20,401 nt of DNA from a virus (IMGVR_UViG_3300044732_000039:1-20401), one strand, 5' to 3'. Positions 3,700-18,681 are shown, counted from the first letter of the stretch. Notes: generated from the letters alone by a model not told the origin. Translations and numbers: made by a program.

Positions 3700-3726
3700 T
3701 TGTTTTCCTCTGCTGTCTCGCATCTA

Positions 3727-3762: not shown

Positions 3763-3774
3763 TAATGTATTTAT
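3763..3774 (-). promoter_or_regulatory. Putative late promoter motif ATAAATACATTA
   Basis: Minus-strand copy of the shared ATAAATASAWTA motif in the short gap between the 417-residue fibre and the downstream adaptor. The ATAAATA core at 3768-3774 ends 69 nt before the adaptor ATG. It resembles the T4-type late -10 element, and no -35 box was looked for or evident here. Flanking bases form ATAA-N5-TTAT symmetry. Confidence 0.6.
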
Positions 3775-3777
3775 GCT

Positions 3778-5031
3778 TTATTTGTAGCCAATTTCACCAG
3801 ATGATGGATTATAATATAATTGAACAGTGAATGCGGCGTTACCAGTTACATCACGTATAGGTTTAATGAATAAACTATTTGCTTGCGTAGCAAAAAGATT
3901 TGCTCCTGTAGCATTTATTACAGTTGCAAAATTAAATGAGGTACCGGCTTGCTTACCAAGTGCAATAGATCCAATACCTAAATTAGATGTACCGGCTTGT
4001 GTACCAATGGCAATACTATTTGAATTTTGATTATTTAATCCTGCGCCTGAACCTATAGCTATTGCATATAAAGTTTGATTATTAGCACCTGCATTGGCAC
4101 CAATAGCAATTGAATTGGTGCCCTGTATGGCACCTGCATTGGCACCAATAGCAACCGACCTAGACGATTGAAGTACACCGGCGTTTGCACCTATTGCAAC
4201 ACTTTCATCACCTATACTAGTATAGCCTGCATTTGCACCTATAGCTATCGTTCTCACAGCACCGTTGCCGGTATTTAAGCCCAAATGAATATTTTGATTA
4301 GAAACAAATAAATCAGTTAATGTTCCTACACTTGTAATATTAGGTTGAGCATTATTAGTTACTGTGTTTGCAGTGTTTGCAGAACCGCTAATGTTACCAA
4401 TAAAATTAACGGCAGTTATATTACCAGTTGATATAATATTACCAACATTAGCATTGCCAGTAATGCTTAAACCGGTTAATATGCCCAAACTTGTAATATT
4501 ACCTTGACTAGCAACCGTTATATTACCTGCGTATGCCGCAAAGTTTGCATTTGCAATATTAGAATTCAACGTTCCTAGAACTGTTAAATTACCTGGAATG
4601 TTTACATTGCCTGTAATTTCATTAAAAGTAAAACCACTGTTACCACCAAAAGTACCATTATCATTGTATTGTATTTGAGTATTACTACCGCCTGGAGTGC
4701 CATTACCGCCTCCACCAGTCATTGCAGTCCAATCTAAATTACCTGTACCATCAGTTTGTAATACATAACCATTAACACCACCAGTAATCTTAATGTTTGC
4801 AACATTGCCTAGTGATAAATTAGATCCATCATATGTTACAGTTGGGATACCATCAACTGTATTCATATTGTTATATAATAGTTCAGTTGGAGAACTATTT
4901 CCAGGAAATAGTGTTATTGCTGGATTAAACGTTAACTGTATATCAGTTGGAGTTATTGTAATATCGTTAGGTTCAACAGTAAAATTAATACTGTTATTAC
5001 TAACGGTAAAATCTAAATTTATATCAGACAT
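3778..5031 (-). CDS. Tail fibre with YadA-head-like AIGANAG repeats
   Basis: A 417-residue protein. The N-terminus (about 1-45) alternates short beta strands (FTVEPNDITITPTDIQLTF). A Gly-rich linker and NITSVGTL/NVGNI shaft repeats follow. Residues about 262-363 hold seven repeats of 15-16 residues with the core (V/I)A(I/L)G-x-x-AG. This is the signature of YadA-like left-handed beta-roll heads, which form trimers in adhesins and some phage fibres. The C-terminus (SLFIKPIRDVTG...LYYNPSSGEIGYK) matches a terminal motif common in aquatic phage fibres. The ATG at 5031 overlaps the stop of the 173-residue gene by one base (TAATG), so the two are translationally coupled. A trimeric, receptor-facing fibre is the likely role. 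There is no S74-type chaperone domain in this one. Confidence 0.8.
   Translation of the reverse strand: MSDINLDFTVSNNSINFTVEPNDITITPTDIQLTFNPAITLFPGNSSPTELLYNNMNTVDGIPTVTYDGSNLSLGNVANIKITGGVNGYVLQTDGTGNLDWTAMTGGGGNGTPGGSNTQIQYNDNGTFGGNSGFTFNEITGNVNIPGNLTVLGTLNSNIANANFAAYAGNITVASQGNITSLGILTGLSITGNANVGNIISTGNITAVNFIGNISGSANTANTVTNNAQPNITSVGTLTDLFVSNQNIHLGLNTGNGAVRTIAIGANAGYTSIGDESVAIGANAGVLQSSRSVAIGANAGAIQGTNSIAIGANAGANNQTLYAIAIGSGAGLNNQNSNSIAIGTQAGTSNLGIGSIALGKQAGTSFNFATVINATGANLFATQANSLFIKPIRDVTGNAAFTVQLYYNPSSGEIGYK
3943..4248 (-). repeat. Seven tandem 15-16-residue YadA-head-like repeats
   Basis: On the minus strand the segment encodes seven units beginning IAIGANAG, VAIGANAG, VAIGANAG, IAIGANAG, IAIGSGAG, IAIGTQAG and IALGKQAG, spaced 45-48 bases apart. 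The first four cores are identical at protein level, with the DNA varying at third positions. The last three have diverged. Confidence 0.85.
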
Positions 5032-5552
5032 TATTGATACCTTACGATCATTCCAATTGGTTCACGGCTTATATTTTGTAAACTACTTAATGCATCAGTC
5101 CTTGTTACGCTCATTGTAACAACTACAATGTTTGTATTTGCGGCACTGTTTGCTAAACTAACTATTGGTGTTGGGTTTGGACTTCCTGTGCCACCAGTTA
5201 ATGTAGCAGGAATATACAGATAACCAACACCGGTTGCTGGAGTAGTAAACACTGCTGTTAAATTGGCACTATATGTTCCAGCACCAGTGCTCGGCTGTGG
5301 AGTATCCAATGTAAGATTACCAATACTTATTTCTGATGGATTTGCTGTTGAATATGTGATATTATCTGCAACATAAAACTTAGCACTTGTGCCTAATGTC
5401 CAAGGTGATGGTAAAGTGCAATTGATTGGATTACCAACACTATCTGTAAAAGCAAAAGGAAAAGTATAAGCCTCTCCTGTGTATATCTCTATACAACTCA
5501 TCTCTGTGCCAGCGATTGTAATCGTCTTTGCGCCGTTTAATAGTAAACTCAT
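5031..5552 (-). CDS. Small beta-rich adaptor protein preceding the YadA-like fibre
   Basis: A 173-residue protein. The ATG at 5552 has AAGGA (AAGGAAAACAAA-ATG). The sequence is strand-rich: an N-terminal segment (YTGEAYTFPFAFTDSVGNPI) looks like the start of a BppU-like or other baseplate beta-sandwich domain, then GAGTYSANLTAVFTTPATG and a C-terminal VVVTMSVTRTD segment. No catalytic motif is visible. The core of a putative promoter lies only 19 nt upstream, and the stop overlaps the start of the YadA-like fibre. Its position relative to that fibre mirrors the 253-residue adaptor before the large fibre, so a fibre-anchoring role is inferred. The exact family is not recognised. Confidence 0.65.
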   Translation of the reverse strand: MSLLLNGAKTITIAGTEMSCIEIYTGEAYTFPFAFTDSVGNPINCTLPSPWTLGTSAKFYVADNITYSTANPSEISIGNLTLDTPQPSTGAGTYSANLTAVFTTPATGVGYLYIPATLTGGTGSPNPTPIVSLANSAANTNIVVVTMSVTRTDALSSLQNISREPIGMIVRYQ

Positions 5553-5565
5553 TTTGTTTTCCTTA

Positions 5566-5577
5566 TATTCTATTTAT
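5566..5577 (-). promoter_or_regulatory. Putative late promoter motif ATAAATAGAATA
   Basis: Minus-strand copy of the shared ATAAATASAWTA motif in the 35-nt gap between the tail-tip hub gene and the 173-residue adaptor. The core lies 19 nt upstream of the ATG, leaving room for only a very short leader that still includes the AAGGA ribosome binding site. Confidence 0.55.
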
Positions 5578-5587
5578 TGTTTTTATT

Positions 5588-8086
5588 TTAACTATTTCGC
5601 AGTAGGTTTAATGCGCCTGCGATACCAGTTACTCTAGTTCCACTAACCATATTTCTAATAATGTATCCCATACCTAGCATACCGCTTGTAGCGGGATATG
5701 TAGTTTGTTTTACTACTTTAATAGGTAAATCAGCTTCCATATTAAAAGTATCCATTAAGTAAGTATATGCTATTAACGTACTAGGGGCTGACGATAACAC
5801 ATAAAAAGGAACTAATTGAATTTTAGTATTACTATCAGCTACTAATGTAGATTCAATAGGAATAGAGACCGTCCATCCGTTTTGAAATCCACCTGTAGGT
5901 TGAACAAACATATAAATCCACCAATTATCTGTTCCATTAGCAATTGATAATACTGAGGCTTGCGCAGGATTAAATGAACTGGTGCTGTTTTGTAAATAAC
6001 CATTCGCAGTAGAGCTTGTCCCTTGATACCAAGGAAATTCATAACCAGCACTTACATTGGTTCCATCAATATACACAGGAACGTTAAAGTCTGTGGTAAT
6101 ATCTACTGGCATTAAAACAGTATTAGTAGATACGCTAGGAATAACAAACTGTACTGTCTGTAAAATCTGTGATCGAAGTAATGAAGTATTTAAATTAGTA
6201 AACGTAACACTGTTAGATTGTAAGTTAGCACCCCAGTTAAACAACGAACTACTAAAACTTGCACGACCTGCTAATTCATTACGTGCTGTTGTACTAAAAT
6301 AATAATTACCAATTGGTAAATCATTAATTTCAATACTTACTGTTTGTCCATTTGTGTATAGAGTGCCATCAGCTAATTGAGTGCTAGTATAAGATTTATG
6401 TAATGCAACGTTACTGCTATTACCATAATTGAAATCCATATACAATGTTGAACCAGTAGCAGGGACATTGCTACTAACTGTAAAACTTGTAACAGCACCG
6501 CTATTTGCTAATGTATTAGTTGTGATAACAGGTGTTGATGGTCTATCAAAGATATTAGGATCAGTCAATCCTGTATTTGCTTCTGGTATAAAATCATCTA
6601 ATGCGTTATCATTGTATATTGTACCATTGTATTCAAACGCAGTTATTCTTGCGCCTAAAAAGCCATCGCTTGTTTTAGTTTCTTGTACTTGACTTACACG
6701 GAATAGTTTATCTGCCCATCCATATTCTGCTAATGTAACACGAACTACATCACCAGCAACAACTTGTATACCACTGTAATCTAAATTACAAACAATAGTT
6801 AAATCTTCACGTGACTGCAATAATCTACGCACACCCAAATAAACTGCACGAATGTAGTTGTTAATTTGTGGATATTGAACAACTAATCTATTGTCTGGTT
6901 CATTAGGCGATAGTAAACTTGGGTCATACCAAGCAGTGCCAACTGTTGTTAAATCAACTACTTTGTAATCTGTTTGGTCATTGATGTTTGCATTTGGGTA
7001 CTGAACTTCTAAACTATTGTATGTTTGATTCAAGTCAATTGGATTGATATCAATACCACCAATCAATACACTACTATCTACACTGTACAAATCACCTAAT
7101 ACACCAGTATATGGTTTGTTGATAACAATAGTCCATTGTCCAGTTAGTTCGCTGTATTGTAGCCAACTATCACACGCATCAACCAATTGTTGTAGATTAC
7201 TTAAACAGTTATCACCTGTATTGACTGGCCCATCAATACGATATCTTGGTTGTGTAGTTGTACCGCCACCTACTGGTATATATGTAATTGTTTGATCGCT
7301 GTATGCGTTCAGTGCAGTCAAACTTGCTGTATCAATATTTGCTACATCAATAGCACAACCATATTGTACATCAGTCATATAATCAAGTAACACATCACCG
7401 GGTTTAGTCAATGTGTTTGTAAGTAACATACTCAATCTTGGCATTTGTTGAGCATCTTGTACATCTTTGTTATAGATAACTTTTACAACAACAAAGCAAG
7501 TATCAGTCATTACATCTGTGCTTGTCCACCTATCACTTACTGGAATGCCTGCATCAGATAATATAGTAATAGCACTTGTGCCACCTGTATTCACACCACT
7601 ACTTGAACCATTACTAAATTGATATATCCAAGCATAGCCATCAATAGTTGTATCTACTTGTGGAGTTGTTGCGTTAGTTGTTAAACTTACAACTTTGTTA
7701 ACACCACTATAATCGCCAGCACCTAATGTAACTTCTTTGCCATTCCAAAAGATTTTGCCAAAGCTCATTGTTCCACTACTTGCTTCACAAATACTGAAAA
7801 CATAATACATTGTCTTTTGGTCAGTGGTAATTTTAGCGTCTGTAACTGTAGGTGCTAGAAAAGCACTACCATAACTTACTGATAGTTTATTGTTTGTTGC
7901 TGGGCCTAATTGAACACGTGCTCCAACGTCTTGTGCGCCAGCGCCAGTTTTATTTGCACGATTAGCGACTAACTTACTAATGCCAATGGTAACTAATGTG
8001 CGAACTGCAAATGCGGCTACACTGCTTATTGTAATTCCTGCAAAGAAGCTTCCAACTGCGGCTGCGGCTGCTGTAAATACTGGCAT
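5588..8086 (-). CDS. Tail-tip hub/host-specificity protein, lambda J-like
   Basis: An 832-residue protein. Residues about 4-40 are strongly hydrophobic and Ala-rich, like the N-termini of lambda I/J-region and related tip proteins. The central part (about 200-500) carries hub features: a conserved LLDYMTDVQYGCAID segment, LVDACDSWLQYSELTGQWTI, and VVAGDVVRVTLAEYGWADKLFRV followed by a strand run to FEYNGTIYND. These resemble the phage_tail_3/J-type hub fold. From about 510 on, beta-sandwich (FnIII-like) and unclassified beta-rich sequence follows. It is shorter than lambda J (1132 residues). The start has GGAG 8 nt upstream and lies just past the GNAT stop. Position after the tape measure and minor tail genes supports the tip role: membrane contact and anchoring of the fibres encoded next. 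Confidence 0.75.
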   Translation of the reverse strand: MPVFTAAAAAVGSFFAGITISSVAAFAVRTLVTIGISKLVANRANKTGAGAQDVGARVQLGPATNNKLSVSYGSAFLAPTVTDAKITTDQKTMYYVFSICEASSGTMSFGKIFWNGKEVTLGAGDYSGVNKVVSLTTNATTPQVDTTIDGYAWIYQFSNGSSSGVNTGGTSAITILSDAGIPVSDRWTSTDVMTDTCFVVVKVIYNKDVQDAQQMPRLSMLLTNTLTKPGDVLLDYMTDVQYGCAIDVANIDTASLTALNAYSDQTITYIPVGGGTTTQPRYRIDGPVNTGDNCLSNLQQLVDACDSWLQYSELTGQWTIVINKPYTGVLGDLYSVDSSVLIGGIDINPIDLNQTYNSLEVQYPNANINDQTDYKVVDLTTVGTAWYDPSLLSPNEPDNRLVVQYPQINNYIRAVYLGVRRLLQSREDLTIVCNLDYSGIQVVAGDVVRVTLAEYGWADKLFRVSQVQETKTSDGFLGARITAFEYNGTIYNDNALDDFIPEANTGLTDPNIFDRPSTPVITTNTLANSGAVTSFTVSSNVPATGSTLYMDFNYGNSSNVALHKSYTSTQLADGTLYTNGQTVSIEINDLPIGNYYFSTTARNELAGRASFSSSLFNWGANLQSNSVTFTNLNTSLLRSQILQTVQFVIPSVSTNTVLMPVDITTDFNVPVYIDGTNVSAGYEFPWYQGTSSTANGYLQNSTSSFNPAQASVLSIANGTDNWWIYMFVQPTGGFQNGWTVSIPIESTLVADSNTKIQLVPFYVLSSAPSTLIAYTYLMDTFNMEADLPIKVVKQTTYPATSGMLGMGYIIRNMVSGTRVTGIAGALNLLRNS

Positions 8087-8087
8087 C

Positions 8088-8531
8088 TCAAATACTCCAA
8101 GTTGTTTCTATAGGCTTCAAACCAAATCTACTGTAATCTAGTTTTTGACCTTCCATTTGGCTCATTGTATAATTTACAATAATACCATTGTCTTTTAATT
8201 CATCACAATGTTCAACATACTTTGCAAGCAATCTATAACCTGCTGTTGACCCACGATATTCTTTTTCTACCCAATATGCTATCTCACTCATTATAAGTTT
8301 GTTTGCATCCCACATAAATGGGCTTTTTATTGCTAACAACATACCTGTTAATTTCTTATCTTTTTCACTGACGAATGCAACACCTAACCCAACAACAATT
8401 GCTGTTAGTATCTTTAATGCTGTTTCTTCACTCTCAACAGTTAATCCTTTTATTGTACCACTGTCTCTGTAATGACGCAACATTTCCATTAATTGAGGTA
8501 TATCAAATTTATTTGCTAATCTTATTTTCAT
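8088..8531 (-). CDS. GNAT-family N-acetyltransferase in the tail module
   Basis: A 147-residue protein of normal GNAT length. It begins MKIRLANKFDIPQLMEML, a typical N-terminal GNAT strand-helix. Residues 81-103 carry MSEIAYWVEKEYRGSTAGYRLL: strand beta4 with the acetyl-CoA loop (R93-G-S-T-A-G98, a variant of R/QxxGxG/A). Residues 133-145 (YSRFGLKPIETTW) match the C-terminal Y-x-x-x-GF region. It sits between a minor tail gene and the tail-tip hub, with a weak ribosome binding site, so it is probably translated by re-initiation from the upstream gene (2-3 nt spacing). GNAT-like proteins are known in phage tail regions, for example the T7 gp13 family, but the substrate here is unknown: it could modify a virion protein or a host target. 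Confidence 0.8.
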   Translation of the reverse strand: MKIRLANKFDIPQLMEMLRHYRDSGTIKGLTVESEETALKILTAIVVGLGVAFVSEKDKKLTGMLLAIKSPFMWDANKLIMSEIAYWVEKEYRGSTAGYRLLAKYVEHCDELKDNGIIVNYTMSQMEGQKLDYSRFGLKPIETTWSI

Positions 8532-8534
8532 TTG

Positions 8535-9212
8535 TTAAGGACTCGCATCTGTAACGTTTGTATTTGTATCTTGCGATATCTGACTTGCATCTGTTTGTGC
8601 CTGACTTTGTGTAGTAGCGACTTGAACTGGTGGCTTACCAAAGTCAAACGCTCTATCACTTAAACTTGGGACACGATCCATACTTGTATCAGTCGGGTTA
8701 TACTCTTTCCAACTTTCGCTATTTGTTTTTCTACCCGCAATGCGATTTTCTAATACAGTCTTAAAGCTACTTGCATTTAATGTGATTGTGAAGTTATCAT
8801 CATTATCTTGGCGTTCTTCACTAATGTTGTAGTTGGTAACAATACCAGTAAACCTGTGAGCATTGCTTGTAAGATTATAGTTGTTATCATAAAAGCCACG
8901 TGTGATTTCTAATTGACTACCACGTATCAAACTACCTAATACGATGGCCATATTGTTGCCATCGATACCACTTAAACTAATACTTGTATCTGCACTTGTT
9001 ACACGAATATCACGCTGTTGTACACCAACTGCAAGTAAGCCACCTAATGGTGTGTATACTTGTCCATCAATAGTTTCAGATTGATAGCTACTACTGAATG
9101 TATAAACATTGTTGTTTGCTGTGTTGCCATACTCATTGTATATGGTCAGCTTAACAAACTCTGCATTATTAACTAATGGTTTATTATTTGCTACTGCTGG
9201 AATATTATCCAT
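8535..9212 (-). CDS. Minor tail/baseplate protein, lambda L/DUF2163-like
   Basis: A 225-residue protein. The ATG overlaps the upstream stop (TAATG) and has GGGGA ahead of it. The body is beta-rich (VYTFSSSYQSETIDGQVYTPLGGLLAVG, then SLSGIDGNN and QLEITRGFYDNNYN), as in baseplate ring proteins beside the distal tail protein. Residues about 150-195 carry ENRIAGRKTN and TSMDRVPSLSDRAFDFGKP. The order N-R-xx-G-R-x-T-N, then S-M-D-x-V-P and K-A-F-D-F-G-K-P is common in minor tail proteins of proteobacterial phages. The C-terminal 30 residues are Q/T/D-rich and probably disordered. Location between the distal tail protein and the hub supports a tip-complex role. The family label is by resemblance. 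Confidence 0.6.
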   Translation of the reverse strand: MDNIPAVANNKPLVNNAEFVKLTIYNEYGNTANNNVYTFSSSYQSETIDGQVYTPLGGLLAVGVQQRDIRVTSADTSISLSGIDGNNMAIVLGSLIRGSQLEITRGFYDNNYNLTSNAHRFTGIVTNYNISEERQDNDDNFTITLNASSFKTVLENRIAGRKTNSESWKEYNPTDTSMDRVPSLSDRAFDFGKPPVQVATTQSQAQTDASQISQDTNTNVTDASP

Positions 9213-9925
9213 TATGCTGTCCCCACAAATTCATAAAGTTCAAATGCGTCACTAAACTCTAACAATGCGTTATTAATAACAGTTGATCCACTCATTGCTT
9301 GACCACCAGGTATCAATTTATAAGTTGGCATATTAGGACAGAACATTTTAAACTGGCAATTATTACCAACAATAATACCTTCGCCAGTTAACGAGGTGGC
9401 TGGTGGAATAGGAGTAAGTATATTTGGTCTGCTTGTAGTAACAACTACCTCTGATCCAGATCCGCGCAATACTTGTGTTGTACTTGTGAATGGGTAAGGA
9501 TATTCATTTGATGATCCAATCTGTATTAAATCGTTTGGTGCAAATATAACTGCTGTTGTTGCGGCAGTTATACCACTTACGTTTAATGTAAGTGTTGTGC
9601 CAACCCAACTTACAACAGTAATTGTTGCTAATTGACCACTAGTCATTGCACCTTGATAACGAAAGATCCAACTTAATTGAGGTAGATTACTAAATGTAAT
9701 TATTTCTGGTGTTATTCGATCTAATGTATCTAGTGCTTCCATTAAATCCCTTGCTTGATAGTATTTAAATCTGTTTGGCATATCAAGTGTGAATTTCCAA
9801 GGGTTTTTAGTTGGTGTTTGACTAACACGAGGTATTTCATTGCGTGTGTATTGTATGCCAACTACTTTACGTCTATCTATGTTTAGTCCGTTAGAGTAGT
9901 TTAATATTGTTTGTAAGCCGGCCAT
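9212..9925 (-). CDS. Distal tail/minor tail protein (lambda M position)
   Basis: A 237-residue protein. The ATG at 9925 has AAGGA 7 nt upstream, and that site reuses the stop codon of the tape measure gene (TAAGGA). The N-terminus (NYSNGLNIDRRKVVGIQYTRNE...KNPWKFTLDMPNRFKYYQARDLMEAL) reads as the belt-like beta domain of distal tail proteins. It is followed by ITPEIITFSNLPQLSWIFRYQG, and an inserted Ig/OB-like strand-rich domain at about 95-185. The C-terminus ends with LLEFSDAFELYEFVGTA. It is the first gene after the tape measure, the usual slot for Dit or gpM, which caps the tail tube and links it to the hub. No enzymatic motifs seen. Confidence 0.65.
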   Translation of the reverse strand: MAGLQTILNYSNGLNIDRRKVVGIQYTRNEIPRVSQTPTKNPWKFTLDMPNRFKYYQARDLMEALDTLDRITPEIITFSNLPQLSWIFRYQGAMTSGQLATITVVSWVGTTLTLNVSGITAATTAVIFAPNDLIQIGSSNEYPYPFTSTTQVLRGSGSEVVVTTSRPNILTPIPPATSLTGEGIIVGNNCQFKMFCPNMPTYKLIPGGQAMSGSTVINNALLEFSDAFELYEFVGTA

Positions 9926-9935
9926 TTATATTTCC

Positions 9936-12380
9936 TTATCTACCATAACTTAATTCTTTTTGTGCCATTTGTACTGACCCAAATAACACTTTACGATTTT
10001 CAGCGAATAGTTGCGCTACTGATTTAGCGTCAACTGCACTAATGTTATTTGTAATGTATGTATTGCCTTGTGCGGCGTTAGCTACATTACCACCGTTAGG
10101 TACAATAGTGCCTGCTGTTTTTGGTACAAACAATTCAGGGCCATTCTCGCCAACAATGCTTGCTTTGCCTACTGGTGGTTGACCACCTTCAGCAAAAGAA
10201 CCACCAAATAATGATCCTAAGAAACTAGATATTCCACTACTTGCACTTGCAAATAGTTTGCTTGCTTGCGCTTTTAATTCTATTTTTAGTAAATCCTGTA
10301 TAACACTGCGAGCAAAATCACTAAACTTAAACTTGCCTGTAGTAACAAAATTATCAATAGCACTATTCATATTTTGCATAATGCTACTCATACCTTCACC
10401 TATAGTTTGTTGTAATCGAAAATTTGCCTGTTGTTGTTCTCCTATAGCTTCGTATGCTCTTGTAATCTGTTCTAAACCTTTTGCAAGTTCGTTAGCTTGA
10501 CTTACACTCATATCCATACTATCAAAACCTGCCGCAAATGCCTGACCTGCTTGACGACCTGCTTCTGTGGCATCACGTTTGATTTTAGCAAACTGTTGCT
10601 CCATTGGACTCTTGCGTATTTGACTACTCTCAAACAATGCTTCGTTCATCTTTTCATTAGCACCACGTATTTGATCGCCTAATGTTGCTTGACGTTCCAT
10701 TTGTTTTGTGATTTGCTCCATTGCAATTTCACGTTGCTTTTCATTATTGCTAGCAATTTGCTGGCGTGATATCACGCTATCTAAACCTTGACGTTGAGTT
10801 TCATATAGTTGACTTGCACTTGCAAGTTGTTCATTAATAATAGGAATTAAATATTCTTCTTCTTTTGTTAATGATTGTTTTTTCTTTACTAATTGGTCAA
10901 TAAGATTGGCATAATCTTTGGTTAAATCAGCTTGCGCTAATATTCTTGTTTTTTCTTCTTCGCCATAGCCAGCAATATCTGCTTCTAATCCCATACGAAA
11001 TTGAAGCTGTTGATTTTGTTTTACAAATTCACCAGAAATTTCTCTTATAGATTGTAGTGCTTTTTCACGTGCCTTTTGATCCACATCACGTTCAGGTTGT
11101 TTTACTGGAAAACGTTTTAATAAATTATTAGTTTCTGCTAAGTTTGCATCTTTAACAGCTTGCGCCATTTTTTCAGTTTCAATACGGCTTTCTTTTGCCT
11201 TATCAATTAGATTGTTCCAACCAAGCATATCAGCTAATTTATCGCCTACAAAATATCCGGCGATGGCACCAAAAAATGTTCCTACGGGCCCTAGTACCGT
11301 ACCTAATTTCGCACCTGCAATGGCAGCGCCGGCTAACCCTGGCGCCAGTGAACCAATGCCTTCAACCATTCGTGCAAGTGCGTTAACTGCTATTGAACCA
11401 AAATCATCAAACAATTGTGATGCTGTATATATTGCAGTACCAAATACAGCCAAAACTGCTACGGCACCACGTATAGCTACCATCATTCCACTGGTAGCGG
11501 CAAATATGCCACTCATCGCACCTTTTCCGTTTTTCGCTATAAATCCAAATTCTTTTCCAATAACAGTTAAGCCACGACCTATTTGACCTAGTACTTTAAC
11601 AACAGACAATCCAAAACTTAATGCAAAAGCTGCCGCCATTACAGCGCCTAAAACTTTTAATGCATTAACAAGGCCTTCTGCTTTAATGCCGCTTTCTTCC
11701 ATTGCAAGATTAAATGAATTAACTTTCATAATAATAGGTTCAAAAGCCATTAATAATGCAAGTTGTAAATTACCACTTGCACGTTCTAAGTTGTCGTTCA
11801 AGTCTGCGGCACGCCTAATTGATTGAGCGTATCTGTCGCCTTCACCAGCTGTTGCTCTTAATTTTTCTGCTAATTGAGCAGGATCAACAGTTTTAAAACT
11901 CTTACCAAACTTGTCCATCATTAGAGTTGCACGGCGACCGGAATCATCAATCTTGCCAATGCCTTCTAACGTTTTAATCATTAGGTCACGTTCACCTAAT
12001 TGTTGTAAATCTTTTAATGATACGCCTGCATCTTGGAATGAGTTTTGCGCTTTTATTGATCCTTGAGCGGCTTCGTCTATACTGCGAACAAACTGATTGA
12101 TAGCCGCAGGCATTTGGTCGATTTGACCACCACTTTCAGCTAATGCCTTTTTTAGTTCTACTAAATTACCAACAGCAATGCCAGTTGCATTGCTTAAATC
12201 TTGCAGACCATCTGCCATTTTGACTGCACTTGCGCCAATAGAAGCTAGCCCAATACCAAGCAATGCTGTTCTCAATCCACCAAAACTTTTCGAAACTTTA
12301 TCTATTCTACTGTTTAAGGTATCTAACGAACGAATAGCAGGTGATGTGTTTACGTCAACTGTATAACTTAAATCTGCCAT
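9936..12380 (-). CDS. Tail tape measure protein, lambda H-like
   Basis: An 814-residue protein and the second largest complete gene here. Residues 1-230 are helical with Ala/Gly-rich heptads. Three hydrophobic segments lie at about 240-266, 299-320 and 345-378. A long charged coiled-coil stretch runs to about 640. The C-terminus has the lambda H-type ending: FKFSDFARSVIQDLLKIELKAQ, an Ala/Ser/Gly-rich segment, then FAEGG and IVGENGPELFVP at about 742-753. Tape measure proteins set tail length and are ejected with the DNA; the known rule of about 1.5 angstroms per residue predicts a tail near 120 nm. It follows the G/T chaperone genes, as expected, since T binds the tape measure. The start lies 1 nt after the upstream stop with AAAGG ahead. 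Confidence 0.93.
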   Translation of the reverse strand: MADLSYTVDVNTSPAIRSLDTLNSRIDKVSKSFGGLRTALLGIGLASIGASAVKMADGLQDLSNATGIAVGNLVELKKALAESGGQIDQMPAAINQFVRSIDEAAQGSIKAQNSFQDAGVSLKDLQQLGERDLMIKTLEGIGKIDDSGRRATLMMDKFGKSFKTVDPAQLAEKLRATAGEGDRYAQSIRRAADLNDNLERASGNLQLALLMAFEPIIMKVNSFNLAMEESGIKAEGLVNALKVLGAVMAAAFALSFGLSVVKVLGQIGRGLTVIGKEFGFIAKNGKGAMSGIFAATSGMMVAIRGAVAVLAVFGTAIYTASQLFDDFGSIAVNALARMVEGIGSLAPGLAGAAIAGAKLGTVLGPVGTFFGAIAGYFVGDKLADMLGWNNLIDKAKESRIETEKMAQAVKDANLAETNNLLKRFPVKQPERDVDQKAREKALQSIREISGEFVKQNQQLQFRMGLEADIAGYGEEEKTRILAQADLTKDYANLIDQLVKKKQSLTKEEEYLIPIINEQLASASQLYETQRQGLDSVISRQQIASNNEKQREIAMEQITKQMERQATLGDQIRGANEKMNEALFESSQIRKSPMEQQFAKIKRDATEAGRQAGQAFAAGFDSMDMSVSQANELAKGLEQITRAYEAIGEQQQANFRLQQTIGEGMSSIMQNMNSAIDNFVTTGKFKFSDFARSVIQDLLKIELKAQASKLFASASSGISSFLGSLFGGSFAEGGQPPVGKASIVGENGPELFVPKTAGTIVPNGGNVANAAQGNTYITNNISAVDAKSVAQLFAENRKVLFGSVQMAQKELSYGR

Positions 12381-12381
12381 T

Positions 12382-12669
12382 TTACTTTGCCTTTAATATT
12401 TGTTTCATTCTTTTTTCAATGAACTGTTCTGTTGGTTTGGTCATACCATCTGGCGATTGTTTACTATAACCACTATCTAACTTCTGTGCATAGTTATAAC
12501 CAGCAACAATTTTATTACCTACTAATCTAGTTTTACGCCTAGCATTACCACTGCGCTTAGGAGTATCTTTTACAAATTCTGCAAAAGCTTCTTTAGGTAG
12601 TTTAGTGATTGCTTTTTCTATCTTTAATAAGCTTTTACTCATTTTGTTTTTTGTTAATGTTATCGACAT
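12382..12669 (-). CDS. Small HK97 gp10-like tail/head completion protein
   Basis: A 95-residue basic protein. The ATG at 12669 overlaps the stop of the T frame (TAATG) and has AAGGA upstream (AAGGAACAATA-ATG), which favours it over the internal Met10. Residues 35-80 carry TPKRSGNARRKTRLVGNKIVAGYNYAQKLDSGYSKQSP, ending with PTEQFI. This order (P-x-x-S/T-G, then Y-A-x-x-x-x-x-G, then P-x-x-F) resembles HK97 gp10-type completion proteins. Those usually sit between the connector and the tail terminator; here the gene lies between the chaperone and tape measure genes. The match is weak and short, so it could instead be an unrelated tail protein. Confidence 0.45.
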   Translation of the reverse strand: MSITLTKNKMSKSLLKIEKAITKLPKEAFAEFVKDTPKRSGNARRKTRLVGNKIVAGYNYAQKLDSGYSKQSPDGMTKPTEQFIEKRMKQILKAK

Positions 12670-12926
12670 TATTGTTCCTTACTCTTATCTAACAATTGTT
12701 GTAATTCGTCAGTTGTAAAATCTGGTATTGGCTCTCTACCATTATTGGCTGCCTTCTTATGATGATAGTTTTCAAACGTCATAGCGGCATCCATTATATA
12801 CAAATCAAACGTATTACTTCTACGTAACACTTCGCTAGGCAACATTCCGTAACGCTTACCTAGTCCGTCAATCGTCAGTATCATAGTCATCTTTTCAGAC
12901 TTAGGATCAATACTGTCTTGCGTTAC
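12669..12926 (-). CDS. T domain of the tail assembly chaperone, made by -1 frameshift from G
   Basis: This frame is open from the slip site at 12926 to the stop at 12669, with no stop codon between the slip and the internal ATG at 12890. It encodes 12 linker residues (VTQDSIDPKSEK) plus 73 residues (MTMILTIDGLGKRYGMLPSEVLRRSNTFDLYIMDAAMTFENYHHKK...). The GMLPSEVL...TFDLYIMDAAMTFE pattern is typical of the C-terminal T part of gpGT and related chaperones, which binds the tape measure. Frameshifting would give a 183-residue GT fusion. Independent initiation at 12890 is possible but its ribosome binding site (GAAAAG directly upstream) is poor. The downstream 95-residue gene begins within its stop. 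Confidence 0.8.
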   Translation of the reverse strand, partial: VTQDSIDPKSEKMTMILTIDGLGKRYGMLPSEVLRRSNTFDLYIMDAAMTFENYHHKKAANNGREPIPDFTTDELQQLLDKSKEQ

Positions 12927-13219
12927 TTTCCCAATAGTTCAGTCACCTTTGCAATTGCTTTCATCAACACGTGCGTAGGTAACATCTGGTCATCTTTTAA
13001 TATCTCTTTACCCTTTTCATCTAGGATCAATGTGCGTACAATGCCAATGATGCCACTGGTATCTTGTCCACTTGCATTTGCTAGTTTCATAAACACGTCC
13101 ATAGGCTGACGATCCCAAGTCCAGAATTCGATTGGCTCACCAAATTCTTTTATTGTATCTTCGTCATCAATGTGAATGTCGATTAGTTGAGGTTTTGCTG
13201 TAAGCTGTGAGAGTTTCAT
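12923..13219 (-). CDS. Tail assembly chaperone G
   Basis: A 98-residue protein. It contains FGEPIEFWTWDRQPMDVFMKLA at about 26-47, a hallmark of small chaperones encoded just before the tape measure, and ends TELLGK. The last sense codons are TTG GGA AAG before TAA, exactly the lambda-type slippery heptamer G-GGA-AAG. Most ribosomes would stop to give G; a minority would slip -1 to give GT. G coats the tape measure during tail assembly. The gene is preceded by its own putative late promoter (13243-13254) and AAGGA (AAAAGGAATAACAA-ATG). Confidence 0.85.
   Translation of the reverse strand: MKLSQLTAKPQLIDIHIDDEDTIKEFGEPIEFWTWDRQPMDVFMKLANASGQDTSGIIGIVRTLILDEKGKEILKDDQMLPTHVLMKAIAKVTELLGK
12926..12932 (-). 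promoter_or_regulatory. -1 ribosomal frameshift site GGGAAAG
   Basis: Minus-strand bases 12932 to 12926 read GGGAAAG in the phase G-GGA-AAG, followed at once by the zero-frame TAA. A -1 slip re-pairs on GGG AAA and continues in the T frame (12926 and 12890 differ by 36, a multiple of 3). The heptamer and its phase equal the lambda G-T site. I did not find a strong downstream hairpin by eye. Confidence 0.85.
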
Positions 13220-13242
13220 TTGTTATTCCTTTTAAATTATTG

Positions 13243-13254
13243 TAATGTATTTAT
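13243..13254 (-). promoter_or_regulatory. Putative late promoter motif ATAAATACATTA
   Basis: Minus-strand copy of the shared ATAAATASAWTA motif. The core at 13248-13254 ends 29 nt before the G start codon. The TAA stop of the 61-residue gene (13251-13253) is embedded in it. It would restart transcription after the terminator at 13450-13480. Confidence 0.6.
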
Positions 13255-13436
13255 TCGTTCTCGTTTAGGTCTTCTAATAGTTGATTTAGTAGAGCTAATC
13301 TAAATGCTTGCTTTGCTTTTAGTTGTTTGATTGTTGCCATCATATTGTCTAACATAGGCATCATCTTTGCTTCGTCAGCTATTAAGCTACGTAGTTTTTC
13401 TTCACTTGTCTTATACCATACTTGTTCTTGCGTCAT
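13251..13436 (-). CDS. Small helical protein between tail tube and chaperone genes
   Basis: A 61-residue, Met/Lys/Leu-rich, probably fully alpha-helical or coiled-coil protein (EEKLRSLIADEAKMMPMLDNMMATIKQLKAKQAF...LLEDLNENE). I do not recognise a family. The gene is sandwiched between a Rho-independent terminator, whose U-tract ends about 14 nt before its ATG, and a putative promoter overlapping its stop. It therefore has no visible promoter of its own and would be expressed only by read-through. The ribosome binding site is weak (GAAAGAAACAA-ATG). A role in tail assembly is suggested only by position. Confidence 0.6.
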   Translation of the reverse strand: MTQEQVWYKTSEEKLRSLIADEAKMMPMLDNMMATIKQLKAKQAFRLALLNQLLEDLNENE

Positions 13437-13449
13437 TTGTTTCTTTCAA

Positions 13450-13480
13450 TAAAAAAGGGAATACCTTTTGAGTATTCCCT
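13450..13480 (-). terminator. Rho-independent terminator after the tail tube gene
   Basis: The minus-strand arms AGGGAATAC (13480-13472) and GTATTCCCT (13464-13456) form a perfect 9-bp stem with a 7-nt loop. A T-run follows at once (13456-13451 on the minus strand). The plus-strand reading has no T-run, so the terminator acts in the direction of the genes. It lies 22 nt past the tail tube stop. Confidence 0.85.
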
Positions 13481-13502
13481 AATATTCCTATATCAATTAA
13501 GA

Positions 13503-14006
13503 TTAAGGGTTTTTCTCTGTGGTCATTGAACCATTTACAGCCAAAGTCATTGGCGTGATCCAAACAGGTGCATCAGGACTTGCAGTTGGTGCAAGTTGGC
13601 TGATAAAGCCTTGACCAGCATAGTAGTATGCGTTCGCAGTTGCATTGCCACCGTTCATTACAAGTTTAAATTGTAATGGCTGCTTATCAATACTTAACTG
13701 TGATACACCATAAAATGATGCTGATGTATTTGGCGTAGCATTTGCGTTGCCGAAGAACACTGAATCATCGATAACCATATTTACAGATATCTCATTATCT
13801 GCTGGTGTTGTAAGCTTATTCATATCTGTGTTGCAGAAATCTGTATAAGAATAAACTCCAGTAGAGTTAGTGATAGTGATATCTTGTAAGCAAGTTACTG
13901 ATAGAGTGTTTGCTATGTTACCCCAGTTAGCACTATTGCTAATGAGTTCTGTACTTACCAATAGTGTTGGTTGAGTACCTGTTGTGTTTACTGTAATTCT
14001 TGCCAT
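13503..14006 (-). CDS. Major tail tube protein
   Basis: A 167-residue beta-rich protein (MARITVNTTGTQPTLLVSTELISNSANWGN..., SVNMVIDDSVFFGNANATPNTSASFYGVSQL, KLVMNGGNATANAYYYAGQGFIS, PMTLAVNGSMTTEKN). Length, the absence of charged clusters and a closing beta strand fit tube proteins of siphoviruses. The context is decisive: it follows the tail terminator-like gene and precedes the chaperones and tape measure. It has one of the best ribosome binding sites in the window (AAGGAG, 7-8 nt spacing), in keeping with a protein needed in hundreds of copies. A terminator follows directly. No single signature motif proves the family. Confidence 0.7.
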   Translation of the reverse strand: MARITVNTTGTQPTLLVSTELISNSANWGNIANTLSVTCLQDITITNSTGVYSYTDFCNTDMNKLTTPADNEISVNMVIDDSVFFGNANATPNTSASFYGVSQLSIDKQPLQFKLVMNGGNATANAYYYAGQGFISQLAPTASPDAPVWITPMTLAVNGSMTTEKNP

Positions 14007-14030
14007 TTAAGTTCTCCTTGTATGTTGGCG

Positions 14031-14474
14031 TTATGTATTAAATTCTAATCTTGTTAATTCGAATGTCCAAACGTGCTTCTCTGCTTGCGTCGGCCCGTAT
14101 GTTCTGACTTGATTGAAATTTCTTTCAAAATAGCCTTCCATAAGTTGTTGTCCATCATCTTTCAATGCTGTAACTAGATTTGCAACTATTGCATTAACAT
14201 CTAGGTTATATGGATCATCTTGGTAACTAATGTATGTTACGTCAAATACATCAAATGCGTGATATATTGCGCCACAATATTGTATGCCAAGTTGATGTGG
14301 ATTTCTACTATTTGTATGTACATCGCTAACGTAAATGCCATAACGAACTTTCTCATCATCGCTGGGAAAATCGTCATAAATCGGAACACTCCAAGTTCTT
14401 GGAATGTCTCGTTTCAACACATCAATAATTTGTGTAGTATTGACTGTTGGTGCATTTAATATTACCGCTGCCAT
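14031..14474 (-). CDS. Tail terminator/completion-like protein
   Basis: A 147-residue protein whose ATG overlaps the stop of the connector gene (TAATG), with GGAG 9 nt upstream. It shows an N-terminal helix (TTQIIDVLKRDIPRTWSVPIYDDFP), then strands (VRYGIYVSDV; HAFDVFDVTYISYQDD), a helix (DVNAIVANLVTALKDD) and a terminal strand (KHVWTFELTRLEF). This alpha/beta layout and length fit the gpU/HK97 tail terminator fold, which caps the tube and joins it to the head. The position between connector and tube protein supports this. Sequence alone does not prove the family. Confidence 0.55.
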   Translation of the reverse strand: MAAVILNAPTVNTTQIIDVLKRDIPRTWSVPIYDDFPSDDEKVRYGIYVSDVHTNSRNPHQLGIQYCGAIYHAFDVFDVTYISYQDDPYNLDVNAIVANLVTALKDDGQQLMEGYFERNFNQVRTYGPTQAEKHVWTFELTRLEFNT

Positions 14475-15001
14475 TAGAAATATCTCCTATCCCCATTGAA
14501 ATAATCGACGTCCGCTGTCCAATTTTCTTCGAGTTTCGTTGTTGGTCCTTGAGGATTATCCATATATAAATCATAGAAGTTCATCAACTGCAACGCCTTT
14601 GTCCATTCATCTTCACATCGCTTTTTGGCGAATTCGTAATTCTGCATATCTACTTCATTCATATTAGATACGTCTGTTACTAGGCTCTCATAAAATACAA
14701 GAATAGCTCCGAACGTATCTAAACGAATTAATGTTTGATCGCTTTTAATCAATAGACTTGGATTGAAACTTGAAATCAATTGTCCATTAGGCAAATTAGC
14801 ATAATAGTAAGCACCCAAAACGGTGTCGCAGTATTTCTGCCACCATCCGAACTCTAACTTATAAAGCCACTCTTGTGAACCGACCTTAAAGTATGGAGCC
14901 CAATCAACTTGTAGAGCACTAGCTCTACGCTCCGCTGCCGGATCGTAGAACTGTATGTCCTCTACTGTTGCATTTGATATTCGTTGATATGGTACCGACA
15001 T
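14474..15001 (-). CDS. Head-tail connector/head completion protein
   Basis: A 175-residue protein rich in aromatic residues (WLYKLEFGWWQKYCDTVLGAYYYANLPNGQLIS, DLYMDNPQGP, YFNGDRRYF). It probably combines helices with a short beta part. It is the first gene after the capsid gene, the usual place of adaptor or stopper proteins that bind under the portal. The ribosome binding site AAAGGA is rather far (about 11 nt) from the ATG at 15001. No family motif is recognised, so the role rests on synteny. The gene is separated from the capsid gene by 59 nt holding a hairpin, and it overlaps the following gene by one base. Confidence 0.5.
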   Translation of the reverse strand: MSVPYQRISNATVEDIQFYDPAAERRASALQVDWAPYFKVGSQEWLYKLEFGWWQKYCDTVLGAYYYANLPNGQLISSFNPSLLIKSDQTLIRLDTFGAILVFYESLVTDVSNMNEVDMQNYEFAKKRCEDEWTKALQLMNFYDLYMDNPQGPTTKLEENWTADVDYFNGDRRYF

Positions 15002-15024
15002 ATTATATTATTTCCTTTAGACAT

Positions 15025-15052
15025 TGAACGAGGATGTTTAGATCCTCATTCA
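15025..15052 (-). promoter_or_regulatory. Stem-loop after the major capsid gene
   Basis: In the minus-strand RNA the arms TGAATGAGGAT and ATCCTCGTTCA form an 11-bp stem with one G-U pair and a 6-nt loop (CTAAAC). On the plus strand the same position would be a C-A mismatch, which fits a structure selected in the transcript. No T-run follows, so it is more likely an RNA-stability or processing element, or a weak/Rho-type attenuator, than an intrinsic terminator. Confidence 0.6.
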
Positions 15053-15060
15053 TATTCGAA

Positions 15061-16116
15061 TCAATCTTGTAGAATGTTAATCGCTCCGCCTCTACGCAAG
15101 TCACCAACGCCAGATCCAAAATATCCAACTCCGGTTAACCAAATTTGCAAGCCACCTGGGACTTCACCAGTCTTCAATTGCAAGCCTTCTTTCATTACTG
15201 TAAAGATTGCGCTATCACCCATATAAGCACCAACTAGTACGGAGCTTGCTGATGCTTGACCCAACAATATACGATTTGTAGGTTGCAAGAATGTTGTGAA
15301 CATAATCATACATCCATAAACTGACTCAATCTTACCTGTTGTTAACAATTCGTTACCAAGTGCTGATAGGTTACTACCACCACTTTGTGATACTGCACCA
15401 CCAGTCAATTCAGCCAATAGGCGAGTCAAACTAGAACCAGAACCACCGGCTGAGCCAGGAACGTTTTCTGTGCAATAACCATTAGAATCAAGTACGATAA
15501 CAGGAGCGCCAGGCATACGAGCAACTTTGAAGTTCTGCTTAACGTTACGAACAAGCTCTAAAACTTGTGCGCTTGAGAAGCCAGTTGTCCAACCTGCTGT
15601 ATTAGCTGGAGTGCCAGCGCCAAGAAGTTCCATAGCACCTAATTGTAAGACACGATCAAATCCGTCTGCGCTAGTTGCGTAGTATGTGTTGCTTGGAGTT
15701 GCTTTGAATGATAAGAACGCCGCTGTAACACGTTGGTCAACCTTCTCTGCGAAACTCTCACCAAGTTCAGCACCAAGAGTAGCCGCTAGGGTGAACGATG
15801 TAGTCCAACCGTAGAAGATATCGAATGCTGTTTGTGCAACTGCAGGAGTTGCTGTAATTGTACCTTGACCCAATGCAGGATTCTGTACAACAGCGTTACC
15901 AGTACCAAAGGTACCATTAGCGCCGTTAGGATTATAATCTTGATATGTAATCGGTGCGAAGTTTGGTACTAAGAATGTTTGACCTTGTGTAGGTGTAACA
16001 ACGTTAGTGAAGTTAACTAGACCATTTGATTCGTGCATAGCACGTAATGCGAAATTTGAAATCGCTGTTGTAAAACCATCGCCCTCATTATTGGGGCCGC
16101 CTAAGACGTATGCCAT
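15061..16116 (-). CDS. Major capsid protein
   Basis: A 351-residue protein following the scaffold gene. The N-terminal part (NEGDGFTTAISNFALRAMHESNGLVNFTNVVTPTQGQTFLVPNF) has the N-arm/E-loop character of HK97-fold capsids. A spine-helix-like stretch follows (AELGESFAEKVDQRVTAAFLSFKA). The C-terminal half has P- and A-domain-like helices and strands (AQVLELVRNVKQNF, APVIVLDSNGY, LQIWLTGVGYFGSGVGD). The protein is very poor in Cys and charge. The ribosome binding site AAGGA is 7 nt from the ATG. An HK97 fold is inferred because capsid genes of tailed phages share it; no delta-domain or protease site is evident. Codon use is noticeably less AT-biased at third positions than in the fibres, consistent with high expression. 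Confidence 0.82.
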   Translation of the reverse strand: MAYVLGGPNNEGDGFTTAISNFALRAMHESNGLVNFTNVVTPTQGQTFLVPNFAPITYQDYNPNGANGTFGTGNAVVQNPALGQGTITATPAVAQTAFDIFYGWTTSFTLAATLGAELGESFAEKVDQRVTAAFLSFKATPSNTYYATSADGFDRVLQLGAMELLGAGTPANTAGWTTGFSSAQVLELVRNVKQNFKVARMPGAPVIVLDSNGYCTENVPGSAGGSGSSLTRLLAELTGGAVSQSGGSNLSALGNELLTTGKIESVYGCMIMFTTFLQPTNRILLGQASASSVLVGAYMGDSAIFTVMKEGLQLKTGEVPGGLQIWLTGVGYFGSGVGDLRRGGAINILQD

Positions 16117-16147
16117 AATATTTTCCTTAAATTAAATTTTGTTGGCT

Positions 16148-16924
16148 TCAGAGCACTTTACGACTTGAATTCGATACACTTGCTGATACGCCTAGACCTT
16201 TTAGTCCGACACCTTTACCTAGACCATTCTTGTTAGCCCACGCATTGAATGCGGCAGGGTCACGTGAATAGTCTGGTATAGTTTCTTCTAACGCACCAGT
16301 AAAACTACCTTGTCCAGGTCTTAAACCTGATCCAGAATTGGAATTGCTCTGTCTCAATAACTTAGGATTACCCTGAGCTACCTCTTGTACCAATCCCTGG
16401 ATTGTAAGTGGCATACCATCACTACCATAACGTTCTTGACCCTTTTGATTGACGATAGCATATGTGCCATCATCGTTCCATTGAATATTGCTTTTAACTT
16501 TATTCAGTGCGTAATCAATCAAATCACTGTCGAACTTGTCGCCCATTGCTCGCTGAATATCGCTATCAAGTTCCTTCTCACGCAATGCTTGCTCTTTACG
16601 TGCAAGATTTTGTGATAGTTCGTTAAAGCGTTCGTGCAAGTCATTAGTTGTAACACGTCCTGAACTTGGCTGTACTTTTGGTTGTTCCACTGGCTGTGCG
16701 TTGCCACCGAGTTGTTGAGCACTTGTTCTAGCAATATAAGCAAGAGCATCTTCTACACTAGTAAATTGAGTACCACTAGCATTGCTAAGGGCAGTTAATA
16801 AACCTTGTGTAGTACTCTTACGAATAGCACCAGCATTCACTTGCTCGTTACCACCTTCTTGTGTTTCCACTGACTGGTTAGTATTAGTCTGGCTGTCGTT
16901 GCCAACGAAAGATTGTTGTTCCAT
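16148..16924 (-). CDS. Capsid scaffold protein
   Basis: A 258-residue, Gln/Asn/Ser-rich hydrophilic protein. The N-terminal 90 residues look disordered. Residues about 95-125 form a heptad-like helix (LHERFNELSQNLARKEQALREKELDSDIQRAM), and the C-terminus is basic. This is the usual pattern for internal scaffolds located between portal and capsid genes. There is no Ser-His-Asp protease motif, so it is not a fused protease-scaffold. The ribosome binding site is weak (AGAAAAAAA before ATG), but a putative late promoter lies 43 nt upstream of the start codon. It should be needed at high copy number and leave the procapsid before DNA packaging. Confidence 0.75.
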   Translation of the reverse strand: MEQQSFVGNDSQTNTNQSVETQEGGNEQVNAGAIRKSTTQGLLTALSNASGTQFTSVEDALAYIARTSAQQLGGNAQPVEQPKVQPSSGRVTTNDLHERFNELSQNLARKEQALREKELDSDIQRAMGDKFDSDLIDYALNKVKSNIQWNDDGTYAIVNQKGQERYGSDGMPLTIQGLVQEVAQGNPKLLRQSNSNSGSGLRPGQGSFTGALEETIPDYSRDPAAFNAWANKNGLGKGVGLKGLGVSASVSNSSRKVL

Positions 16925-16961
16925 TTAATTTTTTTCTGATTTTACGTTATCACCGAGTTTG

Positions 16962-16973
16962 TATTGTATTTAT
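16962..16973 (-). promoter_or_regulatory. Putative late promoter motif ATAAATACAATA
   Basis: Minus-strand copy of the shared ATAAATASAWTA motif in the 71-nt gap between portal and scaffold genes, with its core 43 nt before the scaffold ATG. The TACAAT within it also matches a sigma-70 -10 box at 5 of 6 bases, but no TTGACA-like -35 lies 17 nt upstream. A perfect dyad ATTGTA-N5-TACAAT (16963-16979) overlaps it. Confidence 0.6.
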
Positions 16974-16995
16974 TACAATTAGTTTATAGGTAGTA

Positions 16996-18618
16996 TTATC
17001 TACCTGCTGTACCACCTATTAATAATGCAGGTGCTACTTGATTTGGATAGTAGGTTAATCCTACATCTGTAACTGGAGTACCCGCACCACCTAATATACT
17101 AGTGTTGTCTGGTATTCCATTCTCATTATCATATTCAGCTTCCTCTTTACCATCTTCATCTTCACCGTAATTTTCGTGTGCAGGTATCATTGAAGGTGCT
17201 AAATCTCTGCTTAATACTTCATCATTGTTTTCTTGCATCAATGCTTTTAACTGACTATCTGGAATAGTATTGATAAACACTTGTTCGTATTCTGGTATAT
17301 CTTCAGAAGGTGATAGCAATGCAATGATTTCTTTTGTAATTAATGACTTAACGATTTCATTGTCGCCAACTAGTTCATTAGCTTTGCTTATCAATGCCAT
17401 ACGATAGTTAGTATCGTGTGCTTCATAGTCAGTGTTATAGTGTACTTCACCTGCCCAACGCTGATCCATAAAACGTGCGGCATAAGTGTAAATCATTTCT
17501 TCTGTAACTTCCATCAATCTAGCTTTAGCTTTAGCCGTTCTATGTAGTTGTTTGCGTTCTTCAATGATAGCTACACCTGACGCTATTTGGTTCTTACTTG
17601 TGCGTAAGCCACCTAAGCCAGTCAATGCTTCTATCTGTTCTAATAAATTATCTTGTGTTCTAATAATTGCGTCTACATCACCTGTATCAATTGCGATAGC
17701 TTCAATCTGTCCTTCATTGGCACGAACGATAGCACCTGCGTGTACTGGGACACTAATGCCTTTATCAGCACGAATGATTGTGTGAGCAAACTGTAATGCT
17801 GTATACTTTTCGCATTCTAATTTGTAATATTCTTTTTGTGCGTCACTAGCACTATCAATATCGCTTACGCCACATTCCATTGTTCTAGGATCTCTGCGAC
17901 CATAAGCAATGAATACTGGCAAACTCATGCCAGCTGGGTACGTACCTTCACCTATTTGTTCTGCTGGTTGATTTTCCTTACCAGGACCTTTCTGAACCTT
18001 GTAACTATGCCAGTAGCTTGGAGTTACTGCGTCACCCAAATAGTAACATTTGATGTAATAACAATCTACTTCTTCCATCTCTTTAATTTTAACATATTTG
18101 AGCAATGGGCGACCACCGTAATAGTCAAACTCCCAGTCCCATACATCCAATGGGCTAATGGCACACACATAAGGTCTGCCAAGATTCCCTTCTGTTGCTT
18201 GGGGCATGTCAACTGCGACCCAACAATGCCCAAATATACTTGTTAAATCTCCTACACCTTCCATAAAACCATTCATTGAACGATTAGTTAAGTCACTGTC
18301 TAACTGAAACAAATCAATCCATTCATTAGTCTCAGGAGCAATGTGTTTACCTTGTGGTGTACAGAATTGTAAATTGCGTTTGATGCCTGGCTCAAACAAT
18401 ACATCATTGATAGTGTCTACAATGTAACGACATATAGGCTGTGCTACTGTGTTAGCTACTAAGTCTAGGTACAATGTACTATCTTCGCTAGGTCTTTTCT
18501 TGCGTACAGCTTGCTTGAAGGTGATGCCACCAAGATATGCGTATTGATATGATAACATCTGTAAATAAATGTTATCGTACACTGGGTTTCGTTTTAATAA
18601 ATCGCGGTTATTGTGCAT
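16996..18618 (-). CDS. Portal protein
   Basis: A 540-residue protein, a typical length for portals. N-terminal helical region (YLQMLSYQYAYLGGITFKQAVRKKRPSEDSTLYLDLVANTVAQPICRYIVDTINDVLFEPG). Then the wing-type beta segment (SIFGHCWVAVDMP..., YVCAISPLDVWDWEFDYYGGRPLLKYVKIKEMEEV). Next the region SDIDSASDAQKEYYKLECEKYTALQFAHTIIRADKG, and a long stem/clip helix area (AIIRTQDNLLEQIEALTGLGGL..., AIIEERKQLHRTAKAKARLMEVTEEMIYTYAARFM). The acidic C-terminus (ENYGEDEDGKEEAEYDNENG) may be flexible. It is located between terminase and scaffold with only the HNH and methyltransferase genes intervening. It forms the dodecameric DNA entry ring at one capsid vertex. Start at 18618 has AAAGAGA about 8 nt upstream. 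Confidence 0.85.
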   Translation of the reverse strand: MHNNRDLLKRNPVYDNIYLQMLSYQYAYLGGITFKQAVRKKRPSEDSTLYLDLVANTVAQPICRYIVDTINDVLFEPGIKRNLQFCTPQGKHIAPETNEWIDLFQLDSDLTNRSMNGFMEGVGDLTSIFGHCWVAVDMPQATEGNLGRPYVCAISPLDVWDWEFDYYGGRPLLKYVKIKEMEEVDCYYIKCYYLGDAVTPSYWHSYKVQKGPGKENQPAEQIGEGTYPAGMSLPVFIAYGRRDPRTMECGVSDIDSASDAQKEYYKLECEKYTALQFAHTIIRADKGISVPVHAGAIVRANEGQIEAIAIDTGDVDAIIRTQDNLLEQIEALTGLGGLRTSKNQIASGVAIIEERKQLHRTAKAKARLMEVTEEMIYTYAARFMDQRWAGEVHYNTDYEAHDTNYRMALISKANELVGDNEIVKSLITKEIIALLSPSEDIPEYEQVFINTIPDSQLKALMQENNDEVLSRDLAPSMIPAHENYGEDEDGKEEAEYDNENGIPDNTSILGGAGTPVTDVGLTYYPNQVAPALLIGGTAGR

Positions 18619-18669
18619 TGTTGTGTCTCTTTATATTGCCCGAGGCGAAATCTTTTGATGTATGGTGCA

Positions 18670-18681
18670 TAATCTATTTAT
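18670..18681 (-). promoter_or_regulatory. Putative late promoter motif ATAAATAGATTA
   Basis: Minus-strand copy of the shared ATAAATASAWTA motif in the 65-nt gap between HNH stop and portal start; the core (18675-18681) begins 3 nt past the HNH stop codon and ends 57 nt before the portal ATG. It lies inside a perfect dyad GCATAA-N5-TTATGC (18667-18683). Confidence 0.6.

Follow-up and report, generated by a model that had tools for sequence, protein, structure and literature searches.

A probable promoter of T4-late type before the virion genes of a siphophage family with no recognisable gp55

The motif ATAAATASAWTA, which stands before head and tail genes in a family of small siphophages that are mostly of lake type, is very probably a promoter of the T4 late type. 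It appears to be a known kind of promoter in an altered form, with a covarying RNA alongside. The assignment draws on the anatomy of the element, its position, direction and conservation, its avoidance within genes, its start register and the presence of a separate, early-type class of promoters, all read from sequence. Its activity, its late use and its recognition by the host core RNA polymerase together with a phage factor other than a recognisable gp55 are inferred.

The window, that is, the whole stretch of 20,401 nucleotides that was analysed (viral record IMGVR_UViG_3300044732_000039:1-20401 of IMG/VR), has a head-and-tail gene order running from terminase to fibre. It holds five copies of ATAAATASAWTA, all on the minus strand, which is the gene strand; 0.11 would be expected, and none of 100 shuffles reached five. 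A first-pass annotation of this DNA had listed the same five, and a motif search of the window returned exactly its coordinates and strand. The putative promoters and the genes downstream of them are as follows.

18670-18681, minus strand: putative late-type promoter ATAAATAGATTA, predicted start about 18668-18670, before the portal protein gene (16996-18618, minus; phrog_145, E 3e-22)
16962-16973, minus strand: putative late-type promoter ATAAATACAATA, predicted start about 16960-16962, before the head scaffolding protein gene (16148-16924, minus; phrog_206, E 1e-7)
13243-13254, minus strand: putative late-type promoter ATAAATACATTA, overlapping the stop of the preceding gene (ORF 13251-13436), before a 98-aa tail-module gene (12923-13219, minus), which opens the operon that runs on to the tape measure gene
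5566-5577, minus strand: putative late-type promoter ATAAATAGAATA, predicted start about 5564-5566, before a 173-aa tail gene (5031-5552, minus)
3763-3774, minus strand: putative late-type promoter ATAAATACATTA, before a fibre-module gene (2938-3699, minus)

All of these copies lie in gaps between genes, as had been claimed, and the spacing of 19-69 nt originally given is correct if the count runs from the final A of ATAAATA up to the start codon and provided that the ORF of 2938-3723 begins at 3699 (MAKFTQ...), as in relatives and as is most likely here. The heptamer ATAAATA is found in the window only within the five motifs, both strands counted, against 11.4 copies expected, and it is therefore otherwise avoided there; the earlier reading had seen no further copy on the minus strand, and the plus strand is likewise empty. 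Because a Shine-Dalgarno sequence (AAGGA) lies directly behind the motif at 5566, transcription from that site must start at about 5564-5566. Elsewhere in the window, a strong hairpin resembling an intrinsic terminator (AGGGAATACTCAAAAGGTATTCCCTTTTTT, 13456-13480, minus) lies between a 167-aa tail gene and a 61-aa gene, just before the promoter at 13243, and at 19138-19211, between terminase and portal, the ORF of a DNA methyltransferase-like protein and that of an HNH endonuclease overlap, the latter with its predicted 5' end.

Over 121 distinct sites, the logo of the element reads roughly AAAG-N-ATAAATA-C-A-W-T-A-Y-A. There is no general -35 element: TTGACA-like sequences at a suitable spacing show no enrichment, with one exception, the site of the 98-aa gene in some relatives, and there the letters are codons of the preceding gene. 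At the five window sites, the sigma70 hexamers TTGACA and TATAAT, spaced 16-18 nt apart, are absent, and the best -35 agrees at 2-4 of six positions. With the first A of ATAAATA taken as index 0, the transcription start is predicted at index 11-13 from three independent features. All 11 leaders examined for the 173-aa gene have a Shine-Dalgarno sequence that begins at index 13-14, and the start must consequently precede that point; the 5' strand of an RNA stem starts at index 10-13 in all 24 loci that follow a Dps-like gene; and a distant relative, G031, carries two TTGACA-N17-TATAAATA hybrids, which place the element in the register of a -10. Two other ways of reading the letters were rejected, since an extended sigma70 promoter with TACAWT as its -10 and an archaeal TATA box, with a start about 25 nt on, would each put the start inside the Shine-Dalgarno sequence of the 173-aa gene. 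The SAWTA tail, first described as conserved after the core, is present at all five window sites, but the description does not hold in general: the tail fades in diverged relatives while the ATAAATA core persists, and it is lineage-specific.

Relatives were gathered with the capsid protein as query, giving 80 related contigs, in which the full motif occurs 141 times on the late-gene strand and never on the opposite strand; the figures for ATAAATA alone are 183 and 16. When the window is taken together with 17 whole contigs, 65 of 74 full motifs fall within the 3.4% of bases that are intergenic (64 of the 72 plus-strand copies and one of the two minus-strand copies). Both minus-strand copies, in G003 and G004, stand ahead of a minus-strand gene, and for one of them the predicted start of the downstream gene is over-extended. 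The enrichment before genes for which the first-pass annotation had proposed a search is found in the relatives, and an equal frequency in coding regions or on the other strand, which it had named as contrary evidence, is the opposite of what they contain. Site by site, ATAAATA precedes the portal gene in 26 of 31 distinct relatives, the scaffold gene in 41 of 41, the 98-aa gene in 31 of 39 and the 173-aa gene in 7 of 7, and at orthologous sites the motif columns are 0.84-0.91 conserved, compared with 0.65-0.73 for the flanks. The full motif is never found within 100 nt before the capsid or tape measure genes of relatives, as would be expected if the sites are operon promoters. Furthermore, among the 21 A5T2 heptamers ATAAATA has the fewest copies inside genes (12 sense and 2 antisense in 366 kb of coding sequence) and the most between them (94), a distribution that fits the trace expected from a strong promoter core.

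A second class of promoter is present in the same genomes. Leftward genes carry the pattern TTGAC(A/G)ATAAATCnnnTCTGTGCTAYAAT, which was met 28 times (up to 3 mismatches) across 11 of the 19 records, and the reversed pattern is absent from the same 19 records at the same threshold. The pattern is that of a sigma70 promoter close to consensus and with an extended -10. Its spacer is conserved, and it precedes small leftward genes in G001, G002, G004, G017, G018, G020, G021, G024 and others. Since both classes occur in the same genomes, early-type and late-type promoters coexist, as they likewise do in T4-like phages. It is the gene content that suggests late use of the ATAAATA class; the motif also occurs near replication-side genes in G029 and G003.

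Directly after the Dps-like gene, the motif begins a candidate small RNA of 68-108 nt, at loci that include the following, each with the covarying closing helix.

L206, 5467-5558: candidate small RNA
L208, 5470-5555: candidate small RNA
L225, 5448-5524: candidate small RNA
L228, 5450-5533: candidate small RNA

The closing helix has 11 bp and is 98.3% paired over 16 distinct sequences, compared with 71% after shuffling, a figure that is favoured by the choice of the partner strand for best pairing. Changes on both sides are seen in 10 of the 11 pairs, which constitutes covariation, and scores as high are almost never reached by shuffled sequences or ordinary gene sites. The candidate carries GCCA in 19 of 22 cases and the anti-Shine-Dalgarno sequence UCCUU in 20 of 22 (about 2 each in shuffles), and a comparison of nine stretches from relatives with Rfam gave no match to a known RNA. 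Structured leaders also lie behind the motif elsewhere.

3711-3756 of the window, minus strand: structured 5' leader of the gene starting at 3699 (fold z = -5.4)
G002, ~32254-32400 (late genes on the plus strand): second structured leader, before replication-side genes
G003, ~27044-27190 (late genes on the plus strand): the same
G011, ~5730-5870 (late genes on the plus strand): the same

The first of these is composed of a 12-bp hairpin (3727-3756), which covaries across 11 relatives, and a small hairpin (3711-3722), both with GC-GAGNNA-GC loops. The leader in G002, G003 and G011 has a 5' hairpin, CTCCTAA..TCTTAGA, followed by a GC hairpin whose loop could possibly pair downstream as a pseudoknot.

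The likeness to T4 late promoters that had been proposed at the outset holds, in that a promoter-type element with the common core ATAAATA is enriched before genes. Like the late promoters of T4 (TATAAATA, read by gp55, gp33 and gp45), the element has no -35, a start (here predicted) some 12 nt beyond the first A, an AT-rich initial melt region and a position before virion genes. Unlike them, it usually has A or C for the first T, favours G two bases before the core and C after it, and belongs to a genome of about 30-33 kb in which gp55, gp33 and a gp45-type clamp were not found. The first of these differences had been taken to set the motif apart from the T4 type, a distinction that has to be given up: the late promoter of cyanomyophages is NATAAATA (PMC2984593), and at nine of fifty T4 late promoters, which lack a -35, A replaces the first T, at position -13 (PMC2988020). 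The free first base is common to the family and to cyanomyophages and pelagimyophages (S-PM2, Syn9, HTVC008M), and overlapping early and late promoters have been reported for the latter, as seen here in G031; however, those phages encode gp55 and gp33, and in the neighbourhood of their gp55 genes ATAAATA is mostly followed by T, compared with C here. In public contigs of T4-like phages, G is likewise favoured two bases ahead of the ATAAATA sites near gp55 genes, and the next base after them is mostly T; many of these sites are orthologous copies of a single one. A comparison is also offered by the Methylophilaceae siphophage P19250A (KX815270), whose fibre-module protein is related (52% identity) and whose tail genes stand in a similar order; it has no full motif, and its 25 unselected ATAAATA copies are scattered over both strands. 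Judged by its sequence, the N/TATAAATA element stands before late genes and in their direction as in the T4 type, and the motif would belong with T4-type late promoters by its working, whereas it is in the proteins that the match to the T4 system breaks down.

The gp55 protein, which reviews describe as a core gene product of large T4-type myophages, was found in none of 37 records (phrog_234) by a search that finds it in T4, Syn9 and HTVC008M, and in a profile-profile comparison with the family's protein clusters (45-350 aa) the best probability was 2.9%. Likewise, gp33 (phrog_254) was found in none of 17 records, with T4, Syn9 and HTVC008M positive, and a gp45-type clamp (PF02916) in none of 11, with T4 positive and the Syn9 clamp missed by the same model. 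Sigma70 region 2 was not found in the subset of records searched, and T7-type RNA polymerase (PF00940) gave no match anywhere in a search that had no positive control. Four contigs (G003, G004, G005 and G031) are self-closing, with near-identical ends of 126-145 nt and genomes of about 30-32 kb, and because these too are without gp55, its absence is more than an effect of fragments. The lambda/HK97-like background described earlier is supported, in a siphovirus family without gp55. Bacterial genomes searched with MCP and terminase yielded no prophage and no host. Genes of replication type differ between genomes, with Prim-Pol and DUF3987 in G001 and DUF5906 in G002.

Without a recognisable gp55, some other factor must read the late-type promoters, and a novel sigma factor, or an RNA polymerase of novel specificity, as suggested at first, is plausible. 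The reader is probably encoded by the phage and is not a recognisable gp55. In the model proposed here, ATAAATA(SAWTA) would be the late promoter of a siphophage family with genomes of about 30-33 kb, built like that of T4 as a single -10-type element without a -35, in which N-ATAAATA spans roughly -13 to -6. Early genes would be expressed first, from sigma70-type promoters; the virion genes and the small RNA would then be transcribed from the ATAAATA sites by the core RNA polymerase of the host, to which a specificity factor encoded by the phage would be bound. Such a factor may, tentatively, be unrelated or unrecognisably related to gp55 and have converged on the T4 late sequence. The conserved non-structural proteins are 107-aa and 120-aa families beside the small terminase, a zinc-finger-like protein and NUMOD/HNH-type proteins, and perhaps the factor lies among the first two. 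These universal terminase-operon proteins match neither sigma proteins nor anything known, and a fold search with the 120-aa protein gave no match (model pLDDT 72).

It is rather unlikely that the reader is a host factor, whether sigma70 or an alternative sigma of the host, that uses ATAAATA as an unusual -10, possibly aided by an activator from the phage. The lack of a recognisable phage sigma and the resemblance of the G031 hybrids to sigma70 promoters speak for it, but near-consensus sigma70 promoters with conserved spacers serve other genes in the same genomes, so that the late class is distinct, and a general -35 is missing. In addition, ATAAATA is unselected in P19250A, a point that counts only if the hosts are common to both. 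It is more doubtful still that the family borrows the gp55, gp33 and clamp of a co-infecting T4-like phage. The core is identical to that of the cyanomyophage promoter, the T4 genome has the exact 12-mer ATAAATAGAATA at 116455, with gene 51 following 24 nt on, and the family has no gp55 of its own; however, it carries full structural and packaging genes, unlike known satellites, and no helper is known. Moreover, the T4-like contigs were rejected as the origin of the exact SAWTA tail, which is found at none of 50 ATAAATA sites with a Shine-Dalgarno sequence in 770 kb around the gp55 genes of related T4-like phages.

A dedicated, divergent single-subunit polymerase with ATAAATA as its promoter is very improbable. 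The candidate, a 607-aa orphan protein (L202 2230-4050), has motifs that by eye resemble Pol A and T7 RNA polymerase (YDLNAAVYAIKL, K-x7-FG in KEAITAIGFG, and VHDSF), but it occurs only in some genomes, being absent from the self-closing G003, which retains the promoters, and not seen in G001; it has no Pfam or PDB match, and its predicted structure has a pLDDT of 42. That the sites, which lie at operon junctions and are in a few cases partly palindromic (GCATAAATAGATTATGC), serve for RNA processing or repressor binding is hardly credible, given that a palindrome sought by eye is not common to all of them, that ATAAATA is avoided in genes on both strands, as fits a DNA element, that leaders, the RNA stem included, begin right behind the motif, and that the promoters form two classes.

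The usual picture of T4-type late transcription links it to gp55 and to the T4 replisome of large myophages, and the literature searched described no siphophage with T4-late-type promoters. In the family described here, the T4 late promoter code appears to organise genomes of ~30 kb with another body plan and without the known reader. The factor that reads it, if found, would either prove to be a minimal sigma-like protein of a new kind or show one phage making use of another's transcription machinery.
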